From positions 1 through 34,145 of the forward strand of contig DUNL01000134.1 in the NCBI GenBank assembly GCA_012839385.1: a stretch of 34,145 nucleotides of DNA, written 5' to 3'. Made by a program: the position numbers and the translations under genes. This DNA is from Clostridiaceae bacterium. GTDB taxonomy: Bacteria; Bacillota; Clostridia; Saccharofermentanales; DTU023. A model generated the notes under the pieces. It had not been told where the DNA came from, did no database searches, and was given only the letters and a program-made list of their open reading frames with translations. Of this stretch, positions 763 to 8,312 are shown in pieces. The number at the start of each line of letters is the position of its first letter. Position 1 is the stretch's first letter.

Positions 763-1592
763 TGATACAAACATCCAGACAACTCAAAGATAAAATCCGC
801 AATCTTTCCAAAGAGTACTCCGCCGGTGCTCAACTTTTGATGAGAATCTATATGATGGAACGCCTTCTGGAACGGATTTCATCATCTAAGTACAAAGAAC
901 ATTTTATCTTAAAAGGCGGTGTGTTAGTTGCCTCATTGGTGGGCTTAAGCTCACGTAGTACGATGGATCTTGATGCGACTGTGAAAGACTTTCCGGTCAA
1001 TCCGACAGATGTGGAGCGCATGATTCAGAATATCATGATGGTACCGCTCGAAGACGGCGTGATTTTCCGTATCAAAAGTGTTCAGGAAATCATGGAAGAG
1101 GCTGAATATCCCGGAGTCAGGCTGAGTATTCAAGCTGAATTTGATGGGACGCGTACACCTTTCAAAATGGATGTATCCACAGGTGATGTTATAACTCCGT
1201 CTGCGATTCAATATTCTTACCCTTTGACGTTTGAAGAGCGTAGTATTAAACTTCTATCTTACAATCTTGAAACAGTACTTGCTGAAAAATTTGAATCCAT
1301 TGTCAGCAAACACGTGGCGAATACACGTATGCGCGATTTTTATGATGTTTATATCCTGCAGGAAATATATGAGAAACAGATTTCTCTACCCCTGCTTAAG
1401 GCTGCGATTAAAGCTACTGCAGAGAAGCGTGGTACAACGAGGCATATGGAGATGGCCTTGACCTCTTTACAAGAGATTGAGGAAAATATGGACATGCATG
1501 AACTTTGGACGTCTTTCCAAGATCACAACAATTATGCGAGAGATATTTCCTGGAATGAAGTGATGGATGCAGTCAAGAGGATTTGTGAATGA
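762..1592 (+). CDS. abiEii: AbiEii-type nucleotidyltransferase toxin (type IV toxin-antitoxin)
   Basis: This is a 276-residue DUF1814-family nucleotidyltransferase. The family motifs are present: FILKGG (residues 48-53), the metal/NTP motif R-S-T-M-D-L-D (65-71), the D-V-S-T-G-D segment (137-142), AEKFE (174-178), and R-M-R-D-F-Y-D (189-195). Known AbiEii/MenT-like enzymes add nucleotides to tRNA or otherwise block growth, causing abortive infection when phage infects. All predicted catalytic positions are intact and length is normal, so with abiEi this is probably a working bacteriostatic toxin-antitoxin pair. It is translationally coupled to abiEi by a one-base overlap. Confidence 0.9.
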   Translation: MIQTSRQLKDKIRNLSKEYSAGAQLLMRIYMMERLLERISSSKYKEHFILKGGVLVASLVGLSSRSTMDLDATVKDFPVNPTDVERMIQNIMMVPLEDGVIFRIKSVQEIMEEAEYPGVRLSIQAEFDGTRTPFKMDVSTGDVITPSAIQYSYPLTFEERSIKLLSYNLETVLAEKFESIVSKHVANTRMRDFYDVYILQEIYEKQISLPLLKAAIKATAEKRGTTRHMEMALTSLQEIEENMDMHELWTSFQDHNNYARDISWNEVMDAVKRICE

Positions 1593-1709
1593 TGGAAAAA
1601 TACAAAATAATTTTTCTCTACACGAGCTTACGCATATCAAACTCATGAAGATAAAATACAATAATTACTCAAGATTATTTTGAAATTGATTAATGAGGTG
1701 ACTAATTTT

Positions 1710-2550
1710 ATGCAGATACAATTTATAATTGGCAATGGATTTGACATAGCATTATCAGAAAAATATGGAATAAGAAAGACCACATATAAAGAAATGTATG
1801 ACTGGAATAAATTTTATAGATTTGCAGAAATATAGCAAGCCCAAAACAAACTTGTACAATCAATCTATGAAAAAGAAACATCAGAATTATGGTCTGACTT
1901 TGAGAGTGGATTAATAGATTATTTCCAAAAAATAGAGAGTAAAGGTAAAGGAATTATTGATTATTTTTTGATAAAGATCAAATATGTAGTTATATTAAAT
2001 GTAAATTGAAAATTTTTCAAGACATAATAAATGAAAAAACTACTTAGAAGATTGCTTTGAGGAGTTTTCTATACCTATACTCAATTTAGATAAAGTTGAA
2101 ATTGACTTTATAAATTTCAATGGAACTAATACATTAGAAAGGTTAGTGGATAAATTCAGAAAGTCTTCTCCTAGATTTGAAATTCAGGATAGAACAGTTG
2201 ATGTAAAAATTGGAGAAGTAAAATATGTACATTCTAAATTAGAAGGGAAAACTCAAAATTATCATGAGTATGCTTTTGGAACAACAATGGAAAATGTTCT
2301 TGCTGGATGCCCTACTAGAATTTTGAATGCATTGGATAAGACTAACTATGAATTTATAAACTGGATTTCAGATTCGGATATTTTTGTTACACACGGACTT
2401 TCATTCGGAGTAAGTGATAAATTTTATTGGAAAAGGATTTGCGAGAAAATTTGTGAAAATGGTATTATTATTGATTTTCCATATATAACTGCGGATGAGA
2501 AAAAACATCCTGAAAAACAGGAAGAAAAGAAAAAGCTCAAGAATTGCTGA
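1710..2550 (+). pseudogene. abiH: abiH-like abortive infection gene, broken by one stop and two frameshifts
   Basis: A Shine-Dalgarno (GAGGTG, 1695-1700) and ATG 1710 open a frame beginning with the AbiH signature IIGNGFDIA. A TAG at 1833-1835 interrupts it. The same frame then continues through SELWSDFESGLIDYF. It must shift near the T6 run at 1964-1969 (DKDQICSYIK) and again near the A6 run at 2034-2039 to reach the last frame. That frame reads FINFNGTNTLERL (AbiH usually has FNYT here) and the C-terminal HGLSFGVSDKFYWKRI, ending at TGA 2548. Joined, the parts give about 280 residues in family order. AbiH proteins are phage-exclusion proteins of unknown mechanism. Both frameshifts sit at six-base homopolymers, so indel errors or slippage could explain part of the damage. 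Confidence 0.8.
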
Positions 2551-2586
2551 AAGCTTAGATTCCTTGCTGTAATTCTTGAGCTTTTT
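2530..2586 (+). terminator. Terminator at the end of the abiH remnant
   Basis: A perfect 16-bp inverted repeat (2530-2545 with 2571-2586) brackets the abiH stop codon and a 25-base loop. It ends in TTTTT on the plus strand and begins with AAAAA, so it could terminate transcription from both sides. The long loop makes it less typical. Confidence 0.6.
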
Positions 2587-2689
2587 CTTTGCTTTTCCCA
2601 TGCTGGACCTCCTGCTGGATATTGCATTATATTTGTCCAACTTTCGGGGTGCAGTTCATGGTGGACTTCCGCCGGAGCGGTTTCCAGGA

Positions 2690-3042
2690 TTTTGGAAGGA
2701 TGTCTTAAAGCAAAATGCATCCCGACTGGCTACTTACTTCTGTGAGGATGCAATTATTCGCTGGCATTGCAGTAATTAACAGTTTACCGTTTCTTAGTAC
2801 GTCCGAGCTAATTGTGAATACCAGGGTACTGGGATGGAGAAATAGAAAGATGTGAAGCGTTCGGGGACTTGATGATTTCGGTTGTTAAGGTATTCCTGAA
2901 AGATCAAAGTGCTTCTTTTCATGCGGTCAGTTTTTGCAAACTAGAAAATGGCCTGATTGCTGAAATGGATGAATATTGGGCGGATGACGGTGCGCCTCCA
3001 GAGTGGAGGCAGAAACTGGGGTTCGGCACAGTTATTCGCTAG
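2690..3042 (+). pseudogene. NTF2/SnoaL-like protein remnant
   Basis: Reading from 2693 gives WKDVLKQNASRLATYF, then EDAIIRWHCSN, followed by a TAA at 2777. The frame continues with QFTVS, a TAG at 2795, then YVRANCEY. After a frameshift near 2820-2836 it reads DGEIERCEAF and ends with EMDEYWADDGAPPEWRQ and a TAG at 3040. This order fits the small NTF2-like/SnoaL family protein found in many Firmicutes (nuclear transport factor 2 fold, often unknown substrate). Two stops and a shift make it a pseudogene. The N-terminus is not recognisable and the upstream 2587-2690 holds no clear gene. It has no visible link to the defence genes around it. Confidence 0.65.
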
Positions 3043-3155
3043 AGTATAAATTAGCAAAAGAAAGCAATCTTAAAAAAGTAAAGTTTTGTTTTGGTAGATG
3101 GCTCAAACATTATAGATGTGTGGTGTGTTTCAATCCTAGCGTTGTTAACTAATTA

Positions 3156-3187
3156 TTGCAGCCTGCTCGATATAGGTATATACTTAT
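3156..3187 (+). promoter_or_regulatory. Promoter with palindromic operator candidate before the MNT gene
   Basis: TTGCAG (3156-3161), 17 bp, TATACT (3179-3184). The perfect palindrome GTATATAC (3176-3183) overlaps the -10 box. Extended to 3172-3187 it is a 16-bp palindrome with one mismatched pair. Start of transcription near 3191 would coincide with the Shine-Dalgarno (GAGGGG, 3191-3196). Since the encoded protein has a possible ribbon-helix-helix N-terminus, autorepression here is a reasonable inference. Confidence 0.5.
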
Positions 3188-3204
3188 GTTGAGGGGTGAT
3201 GTCT

Positions 3205-3690
3205 ATGGCAACAAAAGCGGAACTAAAAGCACAGGCAAAATATGACAAAAAGAATACTAAGCAGGTTGGGTTAAAACTAAATTTGAACTATGATGCGGAC
3301 ATTCTTGCCAAGCTTGATAAAGAGGCGAATAAGCAAGGGTATATTAAGAATTTGATAAGGGAAGATATGAGAAATGCTAGAAGCGTTTTATCTTTAGAGT
3401 CTATACGGTTTTTGTTATTGCCTGTCGTGCAGCGATATGGCATCAAATCAATTAGTGTATTTGGATCTTATGCCCGTGATGAAGCAGAGCCAACAAGTGA
3501 TGTGGATCTTCTTATTGAAGGAGGAGATTATAAGGGTTTAATTGAATATACAAAAATGCTTGAGGAAATGGGGACTGCTCTTGGCAGGAATGTCAATGTG
3601 ATTACACAGTCAATGCTAGACCAGAGCAGTACACAGGCGGATTTTCTCTTCAAAAATAAAGTAGAAAGAGAGAAGGTGGTCCTCCTATGA
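3205..3690 (+). CDS. MNT-type nucleotidyltransferase antitoxin with N-terminal DNA-binding-like extension
   Basis: The 161-residue protein has two parts. Residues 1-55 (AKYDKKNTKQVGLKLN, then KLDKEANKQGYIKNLIRED) resemble the small ribbon-helix-helix/CopG-like proteins common in Clostridia. Residues 60-161 are a minimal nucleotidyltransferase with the exact motif GS-x10-D-x-D (G87, S88, D99, D101). In HEPN/MNT systems such enzymes neutralise the HEPN RNase by adding AMP to a tyrosine next to its active site. The gene overlaps the HEPN gene by four bases (ATGA). ATG 3205 is preferred over GTG 3196 and ATG 3199, because the Shine-Dalgarno GAGGGG ends at 3196. The catalytic motif is intact although the partner is truncated. 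Confidence 0.82.
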   Translation: MATKAELKAQAKYDKKNTKQVGLKLNLNYDADILAKLDKEANKQGYIKNLIREDMRNARSVLSLESIRFLLLPVVQRYGIKSISVFGSYARDEAEPTSDVDLLIEGGDYKGLIEYTKMLEEMGTALGRNVNVITQSMLDQSSTQADFLFKNKVEREKVVLL

Positions 3691-4034
3691 ATTTTGAAGA
3701 CAGAGACAGATTTTATTTCCTGAGAATGATTGAGCATTGCGAAAAAATTGAAAAAGCTAAAAAGAGATTTGGAGAAACCCTCGAACACTTTCTGAATGAT
3801 TCTGACTATAGGGATGTTGTTTGTATGAACATTTTTCAAATTGGTGAACTATCCAATCATATTTCAGAAGAAGCACAGGGTACCCTAAACGATATTCCTT
3901 GGCGACAAATGTACGCTATCAGAAATATATTGGCGCACGCTTATATAAAAGTTGATAAGCAAATTGTGTAGGATACGATGGTCCATGATATTCCCCAATT
4001 AGAAAAAAGGCTTAAGGAAATTATCTCTCGCTAA
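3687..4034 (+). pseudogene. HEPN-domain (DUF86) toxin with premature amber codon
   Basis: The frame from ATG 3687 gives 94 residues containing the HEPN active-site motif R-x4-H-x-Y (R79, H84, Y86 in RNILAHAY). It then hits TAG at 3969-3971 and continues in the same frame for 20 more codons (DTMVHDIPQLEKRL...) to TAA 4032. The family usually has a tryptophan at this spot, so a single TGG to TAG change explains the break. HEPN toxins of this type are ribonucleases held in check by the adjacent MNT protein. The catalytic motif lies before the stop, so a truncated but folded product is possible. Loss of the last helix makes inactivation more likely. The coupling overlap with the MNT gene is preserved. 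Confidence 0.78.
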
Positions 4035-4179
4035 AGCTGATTTGTGTATTTGACAATGAGATTGTTAGCTCGGCGCACTTTGTATGGGAACCTAATCATA
4101 AAATGGAAACCTGATTAGAGTTTGTAGATTTATCCTATTAAATTAATTCGGAAACGTTTGACCCAAACAACCTTCAAGT

Positions 4180-4244
4180 GATTGTATTCGTTTTGCTATA
4201 CGATGCCAACTAAGGACAGAGAAACGAATACAATCTCTGTCCTT
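4180..4244 (+). repeat. Interleaved inverted repeats (A-B-A'-B') in a 444-bp gene-free stretch
   Basis: The gene-free stretch 4035-4478 separates the accessory patch from rnhA. Inside it, A (GATTGTATTCGTTT, 4180-4193) is the exact reverse complement of A' (4222-4235). B (AAGGACAGA, 4212-4220) is the exact reverse complement of B' (4236-4244). B lies in the loop of A-A', and A' lies in the loop of B-B', so the two hairpins exclude each other unless they form a pseudoknot. No T-run follows B', so it is not a standard terminator. A weaker 7-bp inverted repeat (CTAATCA 4092-4098, TGATTAG 4112-4118) lies upstream. I see no coding remnant in the stretch. Confidence 0.75.
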
Positions 4245-4392
4245 GTATATTAGTGTCCGTCATGGTTATGGTAACTTGAATGACATTTCTTTTATGCCCA
4301 TCTTAACGAGTTGTACAGCAGACCATTGGCCGAGCTATTTGTTTTCTGAAGAATTTCTGTGCCGGAGTTACGATTTGACGTGTTCCAAGGGC

Positions 4393-4421
4393 TGAACATT
4401 TTCCTGTAATCCCTATATATT
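4393..4421 (+). promoter_or_regulatory. Candidate promoter for rnhA operon
   Basis: TGAACA (4393-4398), 17 bp, TATATT (4416-4421). The -10 matches five of six consensus bases and the -35 four of six. It is the best match I found between the accessory patch and rnhA, but AT-rich sequence makes chance matches likely. Confidence 0.38.
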
Positions 4422-4478
4422 ATTTAAGTGTCAGGAAGGCGTTAGATTTGATAAAATATAAAATTGAGGTGCAAATTA

Positions 4479-4940
4479 ATGGCAAGAGCAAAAGCTAGAA
4501 ACAAACCAATCGTTGAAATATATACTGACGGCGCTTGTTCAGGCAATCCCGGTCCCGGTGGTTGGGCCGCTATTCTCAGGTATGGGGATTATGAAAAGGA
4601 GATCAGTGGCTATGAAGAGAGTACTACTAATAACAGAATGGAGCTGACCGCGGCTTTGATGGCATTGCGTGAACTCAACCAACCCTGTCGGGTAAAATTG
4701 CATAGTGATAGTTCTTATCTGGTTAATGCCTTTAAACATAAATGGTTGGAGAATTGGACTAAAAATAATTGGAAAAATTCAGCTGGCAACGATGTCAGTA
4801 ATCCTGATTTGTGGCAGGCGCTACTTGCGGAAAATGAGAGGCATGATATCGAATGGATAAAGGTAAAAGGGCACGCTGATAATGAAGATAATATTCGATG
4901 TGATAAGATGGCTGTTAATGAAATAAAGAGGAGACAGTGA
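4479..4940 (+). CDS. rnhA: Ribonuclease HI
   Basis: Cytoplasmic endonuclease that removes the RNA strand of RNA-DNA hybrids (R-loops, primers). The 153-residue protein matches the family length. It carries the opening motif YTDGACSGNPGPGGW with catalytic D17, then E55 (NNRMELTAA), D77 (HSDSSYLVN), H132 and D142 (GHADNEDNIRCDKMA), so all four acidic residues are present. ATG 4479 follows GAGGTG (4466-4471); the in-frame TTG 4464 would sit on top of that ribosome site. It is followed three bases later by the Nudix gene, suggesting one operon. A second, unrelated RNase H (HII) is encoded at 26997-28028. Confidence 0.96.
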   Translation: MARAKARNKPIVEIYTDGACSGNPGPGGWAAILRYGDYEKEISGYEESTTNNRMELTAALMALRELNQPCRVKLHSDSSYLVNAFKHKWLENWTKNNWKNSAGNDVSNPDLWQALLAENERHDIEWIKVKGHADNEDNIRCDKMAVNEIKRRQ

Positions 4941-4943
4941 CAG

Positions 4944-5666
4944 ATGGACACTGATAATAACAAACAATTTGATTTGAAACCTGTAAGAGTTGGTTCTACA
5001 GAAATAGATAAGAGAACGCAAGAGCCGGTAACTGAAGAAGTTGAGATTGACCAGGATTTGGAAGTGGTTGAACCGTCCCCGGTAACTTATTATGCCGGTG
5101 AGTCTATCGATGACACTGTGCCAACAGATGTACAGTCGGAGTTGGTTGAGACTATGATTGAATCGGATTTGAAATTTGTGGGACGTGTTTTTACTGTCGA
5201 GCTGGACAAAGTGTTGCTGTCTGACGGGCGCCATTCCCGGCGTGAAATTGTCCGTCACCCCGGTGGTTCCTGTATCGTCGCGCTTGATTTATACGGGAAT
5301 ATATATATGGTTAGACAATATAGATTGGCGTTGGGGCGTATTACTTTAGAATTACCCGCGGGTCTTGGGGAGCCAGATGAGACGCCACTTGATTGCGCGG
5401 TTAGAGAGCTACATGAAGAGACGGGACTTGTGGCAGAGGATTGGCGTCGTCTAGCTTCTATTCATACTTCACCCGGTTATTCAGACGAAGTTTCCCATAT
5501 TTTTTTGGCCGAAGGCCTAACTATGGGTAATAGTAATCCTGATGATGGAGAGTTTGTAACTGTTGAGAAATTACCTCTAACTGAGGCTGTTGAAATGGTT
5601 CTAAACGGTAGTATCTCTGACGCTAAGTCTTGTGTAGGTATCTTGTTGGCTGCTAAGTTGGCCTGA
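4944..5666 (+). CDS. Nudix hydrolase, ADP-ribose pyrophosphatase-like, with N-terminal extension
   Basis: The 240-residue protein has a complete Nudix box GX5EX7REUXEEXGU at residues 140-162 (G140, E146, R154-E155-L156, E158-E159, G161). It is set in the context typical of ADP-ribose/nucleotide-sugar pyrophosphatases (VRQYRLALGRITLELPAG before, SPGYSDEVSHIFLAEGL after). These cleave ADP-ribose to AMP and ribose-5-phosphate. Residues 1-75 are an acidic, low-complexity-looking extension with no recognised domain; typical family members start near residue 75. ATG 4944 follows AGAGGAGA (4927-4934) at a good distance, so the extension seems real. Substrate is inferred only from similarity. Confidence 0.88.
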   Translation: MDTDNNKQFDLKPVRVGSTEIDKRTQEPVTEEVEIDQDLEVVEPSPVTYYAGESIDDTVPTDVQSELVETMIESDLKFVGRVFTVELDKVLLSDGRHSRREIVRHPGGSCIVALDLYGNIYMVRQYRLALGRITLELPAGLGEPDETPLDCAVRELHEETGLVAEDWRRLASIHTSPGYSDEVSHIFLAEGLTMGNSNPDDGEFVTVEKLPLTEAVEMVLNGSISDAKSCVGILLAAKLA

Positions 5667-5696: not shown

Positions 5697-8312
5697 ATGA
5701 GTTGGTCTAAAGAAGAAAACAAATCCTTTATTCGGAGAGAGGTCCACGGAGTTTTTTATGCCGCGGCTGCTTTGCTGTTGGCGCTGGCCTTTTACGCTCC
5801 TCACAAGTGGACCGGACCGATAGGTGGTTTCGCGCGAACCGTTGGCCTTGGGATTGTAGGTACTTCTGCCTATATTATTCCTGCCTTTCTAATTTATTTG
5901 TCAGTAGAATTCTTTCTGGAAAATGAGAGCCGAATGACTCGAGTGCGACTGATATGTATCGGTCTCATACTCCTTACTATTAGTGGCATGATTAGTCTCT
6001 GGTCCGAAGTTTTGCCGGAGTCCGGAGTCGTTACCGAGAATGTTTCTGCCTTACAGTTGCTCGGCAAACTATGGCAGCATGGAACCGGCTTAGGTGACGG
6101 TACCACCCCCGGTATCTGGAGCGGTGGCTTGATTGGAGGCTTGATAGGTATGGGGCTTAAAGCTGTTGCCGGTAAGACGGGGGCAATGGTTATTCTTATT
6201 GCTATGATCTTAGCTTTAGCGGTACTAGTATTTAATGTTTCTTATTCCGCCTATGTGCGAAAATCCGCTCAGGTCTTGAAAGAGAAACAAATTCAAGTTG
6301 GTGACAGTATCAGAAGCAAAATCCAGGATCGTAAAGACAGACAAAATGATATCGCTAAATATAATGAAACTAAAAATAGGGTTTTGCCTGCTTTTGATTG
6401 GAATGATAAACAGGTCAGCGGATCTGACGAAGTCGATTATCCTGATAATCTGAGACGGTCTACAGGAGAAGAAAAACTGGAGTTGCCGTTAACAAGAGAA
6501 GAGATCCAATATCGTCTACCTGAGGGTGACTTACGTACGTCTACGGACGACTATCCCGATGCGGATATTGATTATCCTATGTATAAAGGTGTATTATCTA
6601 CCGGTGCTCAGCCACAAGACACAGCGATTGCAGTTGATCCAACTGTGCGAGATGTTGCTGAGCCGGCGACTACGAAAGCTGGTGATCTTTCCGATCATAA
6701 GCGTTACGCAGATAAAGGCGCGGGAGATACAGTAGCTTCCGATTACAGTCGTAACAACTGGATAGACCGTAGCGCTGACACAGATGTTCCTACTCTGAGA
6801 AAGCCTGAGGTTAAAGGAGAGCAGCTAAGCCTATTTACAGAATATAAACCGTTCCCTCTCAGTCTCTTGAAGGCAGACAAATACCGTAAGCCCACTAGAG
6901 AGAATCTGAGGCATGTGCAAGAGATGAGTAGAAAGCTGGAGCAGACTTTGCAAAGCTTCAGCGTCGAAGCTAAAGTAACAAACTATACAAGTGGTCCTAC
7001 TCTAACGCGTTTTGAACTTACTCCCGGCCTCGGTGTTAAAGTAAGTCGTATCGTTAATCTTAGCGATGATATTGCCTTAAATCTTGCTGCCTACGGTGTC
7101 AGAATCGAGGCCCCCATACCCGGCAAATCAGCGATAGGGATAGAAATTCCTAACAAGAAGACTCAGCCCGTTCTTTTAAGAGGCATTTTGGAGGAACCGA
7201 GTTTTTTGAAACTTAGTCAGTCTGCTCCTTTGTTATCTGTAATAGGGCGTGATGTCGCGGGGCAACCTATTTACTGTGATATATCTAAGATGCCACATCT
7301 ACTCATAGCCGGCGCTACAGGTTCCGGTAAATCTGTCTGTATAAATTCTATGTTGATAAGTCTGCTGTATCATTCCTCGCCTCAGGATTTGCGCTTGCTT
7401 TTGATTGACCCAAAGGTGGTAGAGCTGAGTGTATATAATGGTATTCCCCATCTTTTACAACCTGTGGTAACAGATCCTAAAAAAGCTTTTGGGGTTCTTA
7501 ACTGGGCTGTTGTGGAAATGGATCGACGTTACAATTTGTTTGCCGACAGACAAGTCAGAGATATCGGTTCGTATAACGAAGTTATCAAACATTTCCCTGA
7601 AGAGGACCCTGAATATTTGCCTTTAGTTTTGATTGTAATTGATGAGTTGGCCGACCTGATGGCTACAACTTCCAATGAGGTTGAAGATGCTATTCAACGT
7701 CTGATGGCTAAGGCCAGGGCAGCGGGGATCCATGTGATTATCGCTACACAAAGACCTTCTGTTGATGTTATTACCGGGGTAATTAAAGCTAATATTCCTT
7801 CTCGTATCGCTTTTAGTGTAGCCTCACAAGTAGATTCCAGGACTATCCTCGATACAGGGGGTGCCGAAAAATTGTTAGGTAAGGGAGACCTGCTATATTT
7901 CCCGCAAACTTCTCCCAAGGCTTTACGCGGTCAAGGAGCTTTCGTCACTGACGCTGAGGTGGAAAATGTACTTAACCATATACGTAGTCTATATGGAGAT
8001 AATTATGATGATTCTGTCGCGGAGGCGATCGCCAACCCGGAAGCGGTAGGACAATCGGTAGACCAAGTGGCAGGTGAAGAAGAGGATGAATTATTTGATG
8101 ATGCTTTACGCTTGGTTGTGGAGACAGGTTATGCGTCTATCTCATTGTTACAGCGACGACTTACCATAGGTTATCCTAGGGCAGCCAGATTGGTTGACAG
8201 ATTACATGATCTTGGCTATGTAGGTCCTTTTGAAGGTAGCAAACCGAGGAAAGTACTGATTTCTATGGAACAGTATCTGGCAATGCAAGCGGGTGAGGAT
8301 ACTAAAGATTAG
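5697..8312 (+). CDS. ftsK: FtsK/SpoIIIE DNA translocase
   Basis: An 871-residue membrane-anchored hexameric motor that pumps chromosomal DNA across the division or sporulation septum. About four transmembrane segments fill residues 20-185. A charged, proline-poor linker spans about 190-390. The alpha/beta motor follows, with Walker A GATGSGKS at 539-546, Walker B ending in D649-E650 (LIVIDELADLM) and the RQR-like segment ARAAGIHVIIATQRPSVDVITG. The C-terminal winged-helix gamma domain (about 795-860, TGYASISLLQRRLTIGYPRA) is the part that reads oriented DNA sequences in the family. The length is normal. Whether it acts as FtsK or SpoIIIE cannot be told from sequence alone. Confidence 0.95.
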   Translation: MSWSKEENKSFIRREVHGVFYAAAALLLALAFYAPHKWTGPIGGFARTVGLGIVGTSAYIIPAFLIYLSVEFFLENESRMTRVRLICIGLILLTISGMISLWSEVLPESGVVTENVSALQLLGKLWQHGTGLGDGTTPGIWSGGLIGGLIGMGLKAVAGKTGAMVILIAMILALAVLVFNVSYSAYVRKSAQVLKEKQIQVGDSIRSKIQDRKDRQNDIAKYNETKNRVLPAFDWNDKQVSGSDEVDYPDNLRRSTGEEKLELPLTREEIQYRLPEGDLRTSTDDYPDADIDYPMYKGVLSTGAQPQDTAIAVDPTVRDVAEPATTKAGDLSDHKRYADKGAGDTVASDYSRNNWIDRSADTDVPTLRKPEVKGEQLSLFTEYKPFPLSLLKADKYRKPTRENLRHVQEMSRKLEQTLQSFSVEAKVTNYTSGPTLTRFELTPGLGVKVSRIVNLSDDIALNLAAYGVRIEAPIPGKSAIGIEIPNKKTQPVLLRGILEEPSFLKLSQSAPLLSVIGRDVAGQPIYCDISKMPHLLIAGATGSGKSVCINSMLISLLYHSSPQDLRLLLIDPKVVELSVYNGIPHLLQPVVTDPKKAFGVLNWAVVEMDRRYNLFADRQVRDIGSYNEVIKHFPEEDPEYLPLVLIVIDELADLMATTSNEVEDAIQRLMAKARAAGIHVIIATQRPSVDVITGVIKANIPSRIAFSVASQVDSRTILDTGGAEKLLGKGDLLYFPQTSPKALRGQGAFVTDAEVENVLNHIRSLYGDNYDDSVAEAIANPEAVGQSVDQVAGEEEDELFDDALRLVVETGYASISLLQRRLTIGYPRAARLVDRLHDLGYVGPFEGSKPRKVLISMEQYLAMQAGEDTKD

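Follow-up and report, generated by a model that had tools for sequence, protein, structure and literature searches.

Interleaved inverted repeats in a Clostridiaceae genome as a probable attP-type junction of elements moved by large serine integrases

Large serine integrases such as those of A118/LI, phiC31 and Bxb1 act at sites composed of mirror half-sites about a central dinucleotide, with a distal motif approximately 16 to 27 bp from the centre, and these sites lie beside the phage integrase gene; in attP, the zinc-ribbon motif occupies half-site positions 16 to 24 about the central dinucleotide (PMC3783163). Also known are multi-targeting large serine recombinases, in which integrases that are more than 90% identical are found at different genes (PMC10083194; the word tRNA is absent from its main text), and tandem or triplet serine integrases, at least two adjacent to one another, in streptococcal ICEs and in phages such as phi1207.3, where the ICE triplets insert in and disrupt the protein genes mutT, traG and hsdM (PMC4701971). 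Islands and prophages borne on tRNA genes leave the target tRNA intact and insert in tandem, but usually rely on tyrosine integrases and on a longer block of identity to one tRNA. Intrinsic tRNA terminators consist of a G+C-bearing hairpin and a T-tract immediately behind the tRNA.

The locus described here lies in a window of 34,145 nucleotides (the whole stretch of DNA that was analyzed, contig DUNL01000134.1 of a Clostridiaceae bacterium), and it and its relatives share features with each of these systems. In contrast to the A118/LI, phiC31 and Bxb1 sites, the right arm is placed in the loop of a terminator hairpin, several tRNA genes serve as targets at their CCA ends, and the attP flanks are long and carry TGCACCC iterons. 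Whereas the multi-targeting recombinases are found at different genes, all targets here are tRNA 3′ ends; unlike in tRNA-borne islands, CCA alone is shared and several tRNAs are used; and unlike in intrinsic tRNA terminators, the loop sequence is conserved at a fixed distance from CCA, and the copy in the window is without a T-tract. The integrases found here are ∼50% identical to phage relatives, a likeness to the streptococcal tandem and triplet systems. A literature search of incomplete coverage returned no description of serine integrases that act at many tRNA 3′ ends and whose sites embed an arm in a terminator, and integration at many tRNAs by elements that bring their own terminator appears to be a variant that has been little described; the TIGER and Islander island databases may already hold such cases.

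The repeats lie on the forward strand between a HepT gene (stop codon at 3969–3971) and rnhA (from 4464), in the order A-B-A′-B′. Arm A (4180–4193, GATTGTATTCGTTT, 14 bp), the putative left integrase-binding arm, matches arm A′ (4222–4235, AAACGAATACAATC), the putative right one, at 14/14 positions, and at 94% when extended to 17 nt. B (4212–4222, AAGGACAGAGA) and B′ (4234–4244, TCTCTGTCCTT) match at 11/11 positions as the perfect 11-bp stem of a terminator-like hairpin that holds A′ in its loop, A′ overlapping B by one base and B′ by two; the T-tract expected 3′ of B′ has been lost. The first-pass annotation had reported perfect interleaved arms at 4180–4244, which are indeed present, with 14 bases for A, as found, and 9 to 10 for B, which in fact spans 11. 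Its view that chance occurrence is unlikely is borne out, as 30 block-shuffled windows were free of interleaved pairs (arms ≥12 and ≥9, span ≤75), and 4180–4244 is the sole place in the real window with these properties. The RNA fold of the segment is 2.7 s.d. below that of shuffled sequences; the predicted structure contains the B/B′ hairpin and not the A-A′ helix.

That annotation had proposed a pseudoknot or two-state switch, that is, a cis-acting RNA or attenuator in which competing A-A′ and B-B′ pairing controls a neighbouring gene, and had named recombination ends in passing. The A-B-A′-B′ topology, the perfect arms and the stability of the B/B′ hairpin are what such a switch would present. 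Searches of the window's own genome (G000, 1.96 Mb in 291 contigs, 88.9% complete) and of its relatives, which the annotation had suggested as checks, show instead that the region is built of separable modules that recur, termed A, D and C. The A pattern (≤3 mismatches) occurs in 10 of 188 genomes of the order, all within the window's family of 38 genomes, and a reversed control pattern had no matches in the 188; the relatives with named records are MAGs titled Clostridiaceae, Clostridiales, Bacillota or Mageeibacillus, and one is titled Chloroflexi. Arm A occurs without A′ in C25/L009, L031, L036, L035 and L037, and the A′-bearing hairpin is found without A after tRNA genes, so the two helices do not travel together among homologs. 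Within the family A is nearly invariant and A′ drifts, with no compensatory A-A′ change; the B stem, by comparison, varies in sequence across copies with its pairing kept. A scan against Rfam gave no significant match (one sub-threshold snoRNA match elsewhere was judged to be chance), and an intact copy of the composite sits at the border of an integrase gene in a phage contig. An RNA switch is therefore highly improbable, and the recombination reading is the one supported. The B/B′ hairpin is plausibly an RNA-level feature, namely a terminator, with which A would compete only because a recombination junction sets A and B/B′ side by side.

We consider it very probable that the composite at 4160–4245 represents an attP-type junction, in which module A is joined at C^A to module D, and that the elements concerned are moved by large serine integrases. 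Module A (4160–4208) ends in GATGCCA, would be the decayed right end of an integrated element, and is matched with an nhmmer E value of 1.7e-12 by a model built from family copies that include the window copy. Further copies were located in C25, C37, G002, G032, G037, L214 and others, usually with TGCACCC iterons on the left of the module, of which the window retains one degenerate example (TTGACCC). Module D (4209–4245) is the B-A′-B′ hairpin in a short B-type form, a putative left-end or tRNA-terminator half-site, assigned because the same hairpin follows tRNA-Leu in C259 and tRNA-Thr and tRNA-Cys in G030. The arms A and A′ are symmetric about 4207^4208 (C^A), which makes CA at 4207–4208 the proposed crossover dinucleotide: over half-site positions 14 to 29 the mirror halves agree at 14/16 positions in the window and at 11 to 15 of 16 in nine other composites, with zero offset of the symmetry in 8/10 composites. 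Such two-fold symmetric half-sites about a central dinucleotide are what an attP site presents. The distal arm motif is at about 18 to 27, which places it ∼2 bp more distal than its A118 counterpart. tRNA 3′ ends and module A have only CCA in common, and related copies diverge right after CCA, which suggests a crossover of about two bases, with little more shared between attB and attP. Judged from sequence, the geometry of A|D resembles that of a large serine integrase attP.

The CCA of tRNA-Cys is immediately followed by module D in several genomes, as are that of tRNA-Thr in G030 and that of tRNA-Asn in C25 (partial, at a contig end); in C259, D starts ∼4 bp beyond the CCA of tRNA-Leu. The tRNA-adjacent left ends have ∼160 bp in common, including GGGTGCA, the inverse of the right-end iterons. 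D was also considered as a tRNA terminator that had merely been inherited; this was rejected as the whole story, since the same left end of ∼160 bp is found at tRNA-Asn in one genome and at tRNA-Cys in others, and since at the position of D other tRNA-Cys genes in the family carry terminators that are quite different and unrelated. On the other side of the elements, A is followed by another D in L053, L032, L058, L061, C37 and the window, and by unrelated terminator hairpins in L031, L036 and L035, which we read as putative displaced tRNA terminators. Up to the junction, L031 and L036 agree at 97.7% over 259 bp; beyond it they diverge. In L037 (the MAG titled Chloroflexi), module A is followed at 5702–5790 by an apparent tRNA 3′ half in the opposite orientation, where ARAGORN reports no tRNA.

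The order in C25 is tRNA-Asn|D, a hydrolase fragment, then A, and this is the sole element with both ends and flanks read. On it was judged whether the modules could be the ends of a DDE transposon (IS21- or Tn7-like) with the TGCACCC iterons as transposase sites. Inverted iterons at both ends and termini of the TG...CA type would suit such a transposon; the C25 element, however, is without a target duplication (AGCCA on the left, TATAG on the right), insertion falls exactly at the CCA of different tRNAs, no transposase was recognized among the inspected array genes, and the phage copy adjoins serine-integrase genes, all of which leaves a DDE transposon very unlikely. A fragment upstream of A in L060 was examined as a serine integrase, for which Pfam gave only the tail of a transposase core. 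Fragments that resemble different parts of an alpha/beta hydrolase gene (L068 6871–7308 and L120 near 7759–7986) each adjoin a D or A module on separate contigs, and an intact-looking relative is found at L126 9729–10547.

The link of the A/D ends to serine integrases came from the contigs L171, L214 and L215 rather than from the integrase contigs of the family, in which no A/D-type ends were found. IMG/VR was scanned with two spaced motifs, which returned one contig each, L214 and L215. L214, a phage contig, contains an A|D site that is almost letter for letter that of the family, between endolysin/holin and serine-integrase genes, its integrase being broken off by the contig end; it could derive from the junction of tandem prophages instead of from a free circle. 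In L215 the other arm motif occurs at 1.8 kb from a pair of serine-integrase genes, and L171 has the junction TTGTATCA...GCC^A...TTGATACAA, which has an interleaved hairpin of its own and adjoins a serine-integrase gene. In these three relatives the site and a serine integrase gene lie in the same element. When 33 additional viral contigs encoding related integrases were scanned for symmetry, two weak hits emerged besides those already known, neither of them convincing.

Within the family, PF07508 proteins are encoded in 15/38 genomes, often in pairs. Serine-integrase genes end near the 3′ ends of tRNA-Cys (G028), tRNA-Thr (G035) and tRNA-Trp (G006), and further ones lie near those of tRNA-Pro (G030, with a phage holin upstream) and tRNA-Met (G001, with one small gene intervening). 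The left ends of these five elements are hairpins in which GATAC starts exactly 19 nt after CCA, as (G/A)ATAC does in D, where the A′ core AATACAAT lies at 19 to 26 nt after CCA. The integrases at tRNA-Cys, -Thr, -Trp and -Met are 93 to 96% identical over the available parts. Of three additional viral contigs that encode related integrases, two end at tRNA-Cys and tRNA-Pro and have GATAC at +19, and one ends at tRNA-Ser and lacks it there. Serine integrases also adjoin tRNA-Met and tRNA-Pro at L177 7424–9102 and L178 5909–7812, with no GATAC at +19, and may represent a separate group that behaves similarly.

A site for a tyrosine recombinase, of which an integron-like attC cassette junction would be one form, would likewise account for tandem cassettes with an inverted-repeat junction. 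Tyrosine recombinases need an overlap of 6 to 8 bp, for which the CA or CCA that alone is common to tRNA ends and module A is too short. The sole tyrosine recombinase found in G000 is of a type present in nearly every genome of the family, and the examined contigs with PF00589 genes, considered as a source of movers, carry no A/D ends. Even though tRNA 3′ ends are classic targets of tyrosine integrases (PMC4701971), we regard this origin as having very little likelihood. Two or three adjacent tyrosine recombinase genes occur in L121 (G036:C25) and L123 (G004:C109), recalling recombinase-in-trio elements.

The preferred reading, an attachment site of large serine integrases, thus draws on the symmetry, the tRNA-adjacent positions, the hairpins beyond A, the L214 site and the near-identical integrases at four tRNAs. 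In the free circular element, A and D would be joined as attP; the integrase would bind the mirror-image arms A and A′, cut at the central CA, and exchange it with the CA of the 3′ CCA of a tRNA gene. After integration, D would sit behind the tRNA, its B/B′ hairpin, with A′ in the loop, replacing the tRNA's own terminator, and A would close the element with the old terminator beyond it. With a terminator at its left end, an element could lie directly behind a tRNA gene and leave transcription of the tRNA unharmed. Stacking of elements in tandem would recreate A|D inside arrays. We infer the recombination itself, the protein domain that binds the arms, and the movement in trans of relatives that have no integrase.

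As to what the integrase reads in the target, the A arm was compared with the tRNA T-arm, and agrees best at an inward shift of 4 to 5 bp (6.1 to 6.3 of 12 positions, over tRNAs that are non-independent samples); published attB sites show a 5-bp shift, a prediction that this optimum fits. The L171-type arm scores equally at shifts of 0 and 5. From this modest agreement we put forward, as a hypothesis, the tRNA T-arm as a candidate attB half-site. A wider proposal, possible though somewhat doubtful, is that a clade of serine integrases reads shared tRNA features (the T-arm GGTTCRANTCC plus CCA) as attB and stacks phages and integrase-less cargo cassettes behind many tRNAs, each with its own terminator, in an integron-like system whose cargo would include McrBC, Fic and DUF4143 ATPases, and perhaps AbiE and MNT/HepT. 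If CA and the T-arm do give near-identical integrases access to many tRNA genes, such enzymes would integrate at multiple sites and have targets in most genomes, and the use of many tRNAs would offer a route for the spread of defence genes.

Arrays begin at tRNA-Cys in G032 and G037, and the gene listings of several arrays contain no recognizable integrase; such arrays may be moved in trans. Their putative cargo comprises McrBC in C37 and Fic and DUF4143 ATPases in G032 and G037. In C37 (L120), McrBC-type restriction genes at 900–5390 lie between the A|D junction and a copy of module C, with the AAA/McrB part split over two frames. Genes for AAA_14/DUF4143 ATPase-like proteins recur beside A/D ends in L054, L058, L059, L061 and L062, as if they were typical cargo, and Fic or Phd/RelE-like genes accompany the ends in some of these.

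The copy in the window is a decayed relic, since its iterons are mostly gone, the T-tract that follows the hairpin in most relatives is replaced by a remnant of module C, the HepT gene has a premature stop, and no PF07508 (serine integrase) gene was found in G000 at its 88.9% completeness. As a terminator the copy is accordingly incomplete, with the stable hairpin present and the T-tract missing. To the left of the composite lie AbiEi/AbiEii genes (136–1592; Pfam AbiEii 7.9e-40, with an AbiEi_4 match below its cut-off), an AbiH-like fragment and a pair of MNT nucleotidyltransferase and HepT genes (3196–3971; Pfam NTP_transf_2 1.4e-12, HepT-like 3.1e-15). These are consistent with cargo, with no left end present in the window to prove it. 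The HepT gene (3687–4034) has an in-frame TAG at 3969–3971 in a frame that would run to TAA at 4032–4034, and the HepT toxin of the pair looks truncated. The local element cannot be delimited because the contig has no tRNA and no second element end; the tRNA expected for this copy, if any, would lie beyond the contig start. A tRNA upstream of rnhA, where sister genomes carry tRNA-Pro or tRNA-Trp, was considered as the local target and rejected, the window having no tRNA there and D being in the wrong orientation for such an origin. At some tRNAs, the window's short B-type hairpin may act as a terminator by itself, and D may here be a displaced tRNA terminator rather than the left end of another element, as the same type of hairpin stands solo after tRNA-Leu and tRNA-Thr.

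A suspected RNA switch can thus prove to be a recombination junction, and mirror arms about CCA, with one arm in a terminator loop, offer a simple sign for finding, in Clostridia, where serine-integrase elements at tRNA genes have their ends. Module C, the remnant of an unrelated repeat end (4240–4299; nhmmer E value 2.9e-07), also occurs in C37, C28 and G018, in two cases at a contig end; the sites recorded besides that of the window are L120 947–831 and L069 10167–10276, together with L065 and L066 at contig ends. It is probably the end of a multicopy insertion sequence.
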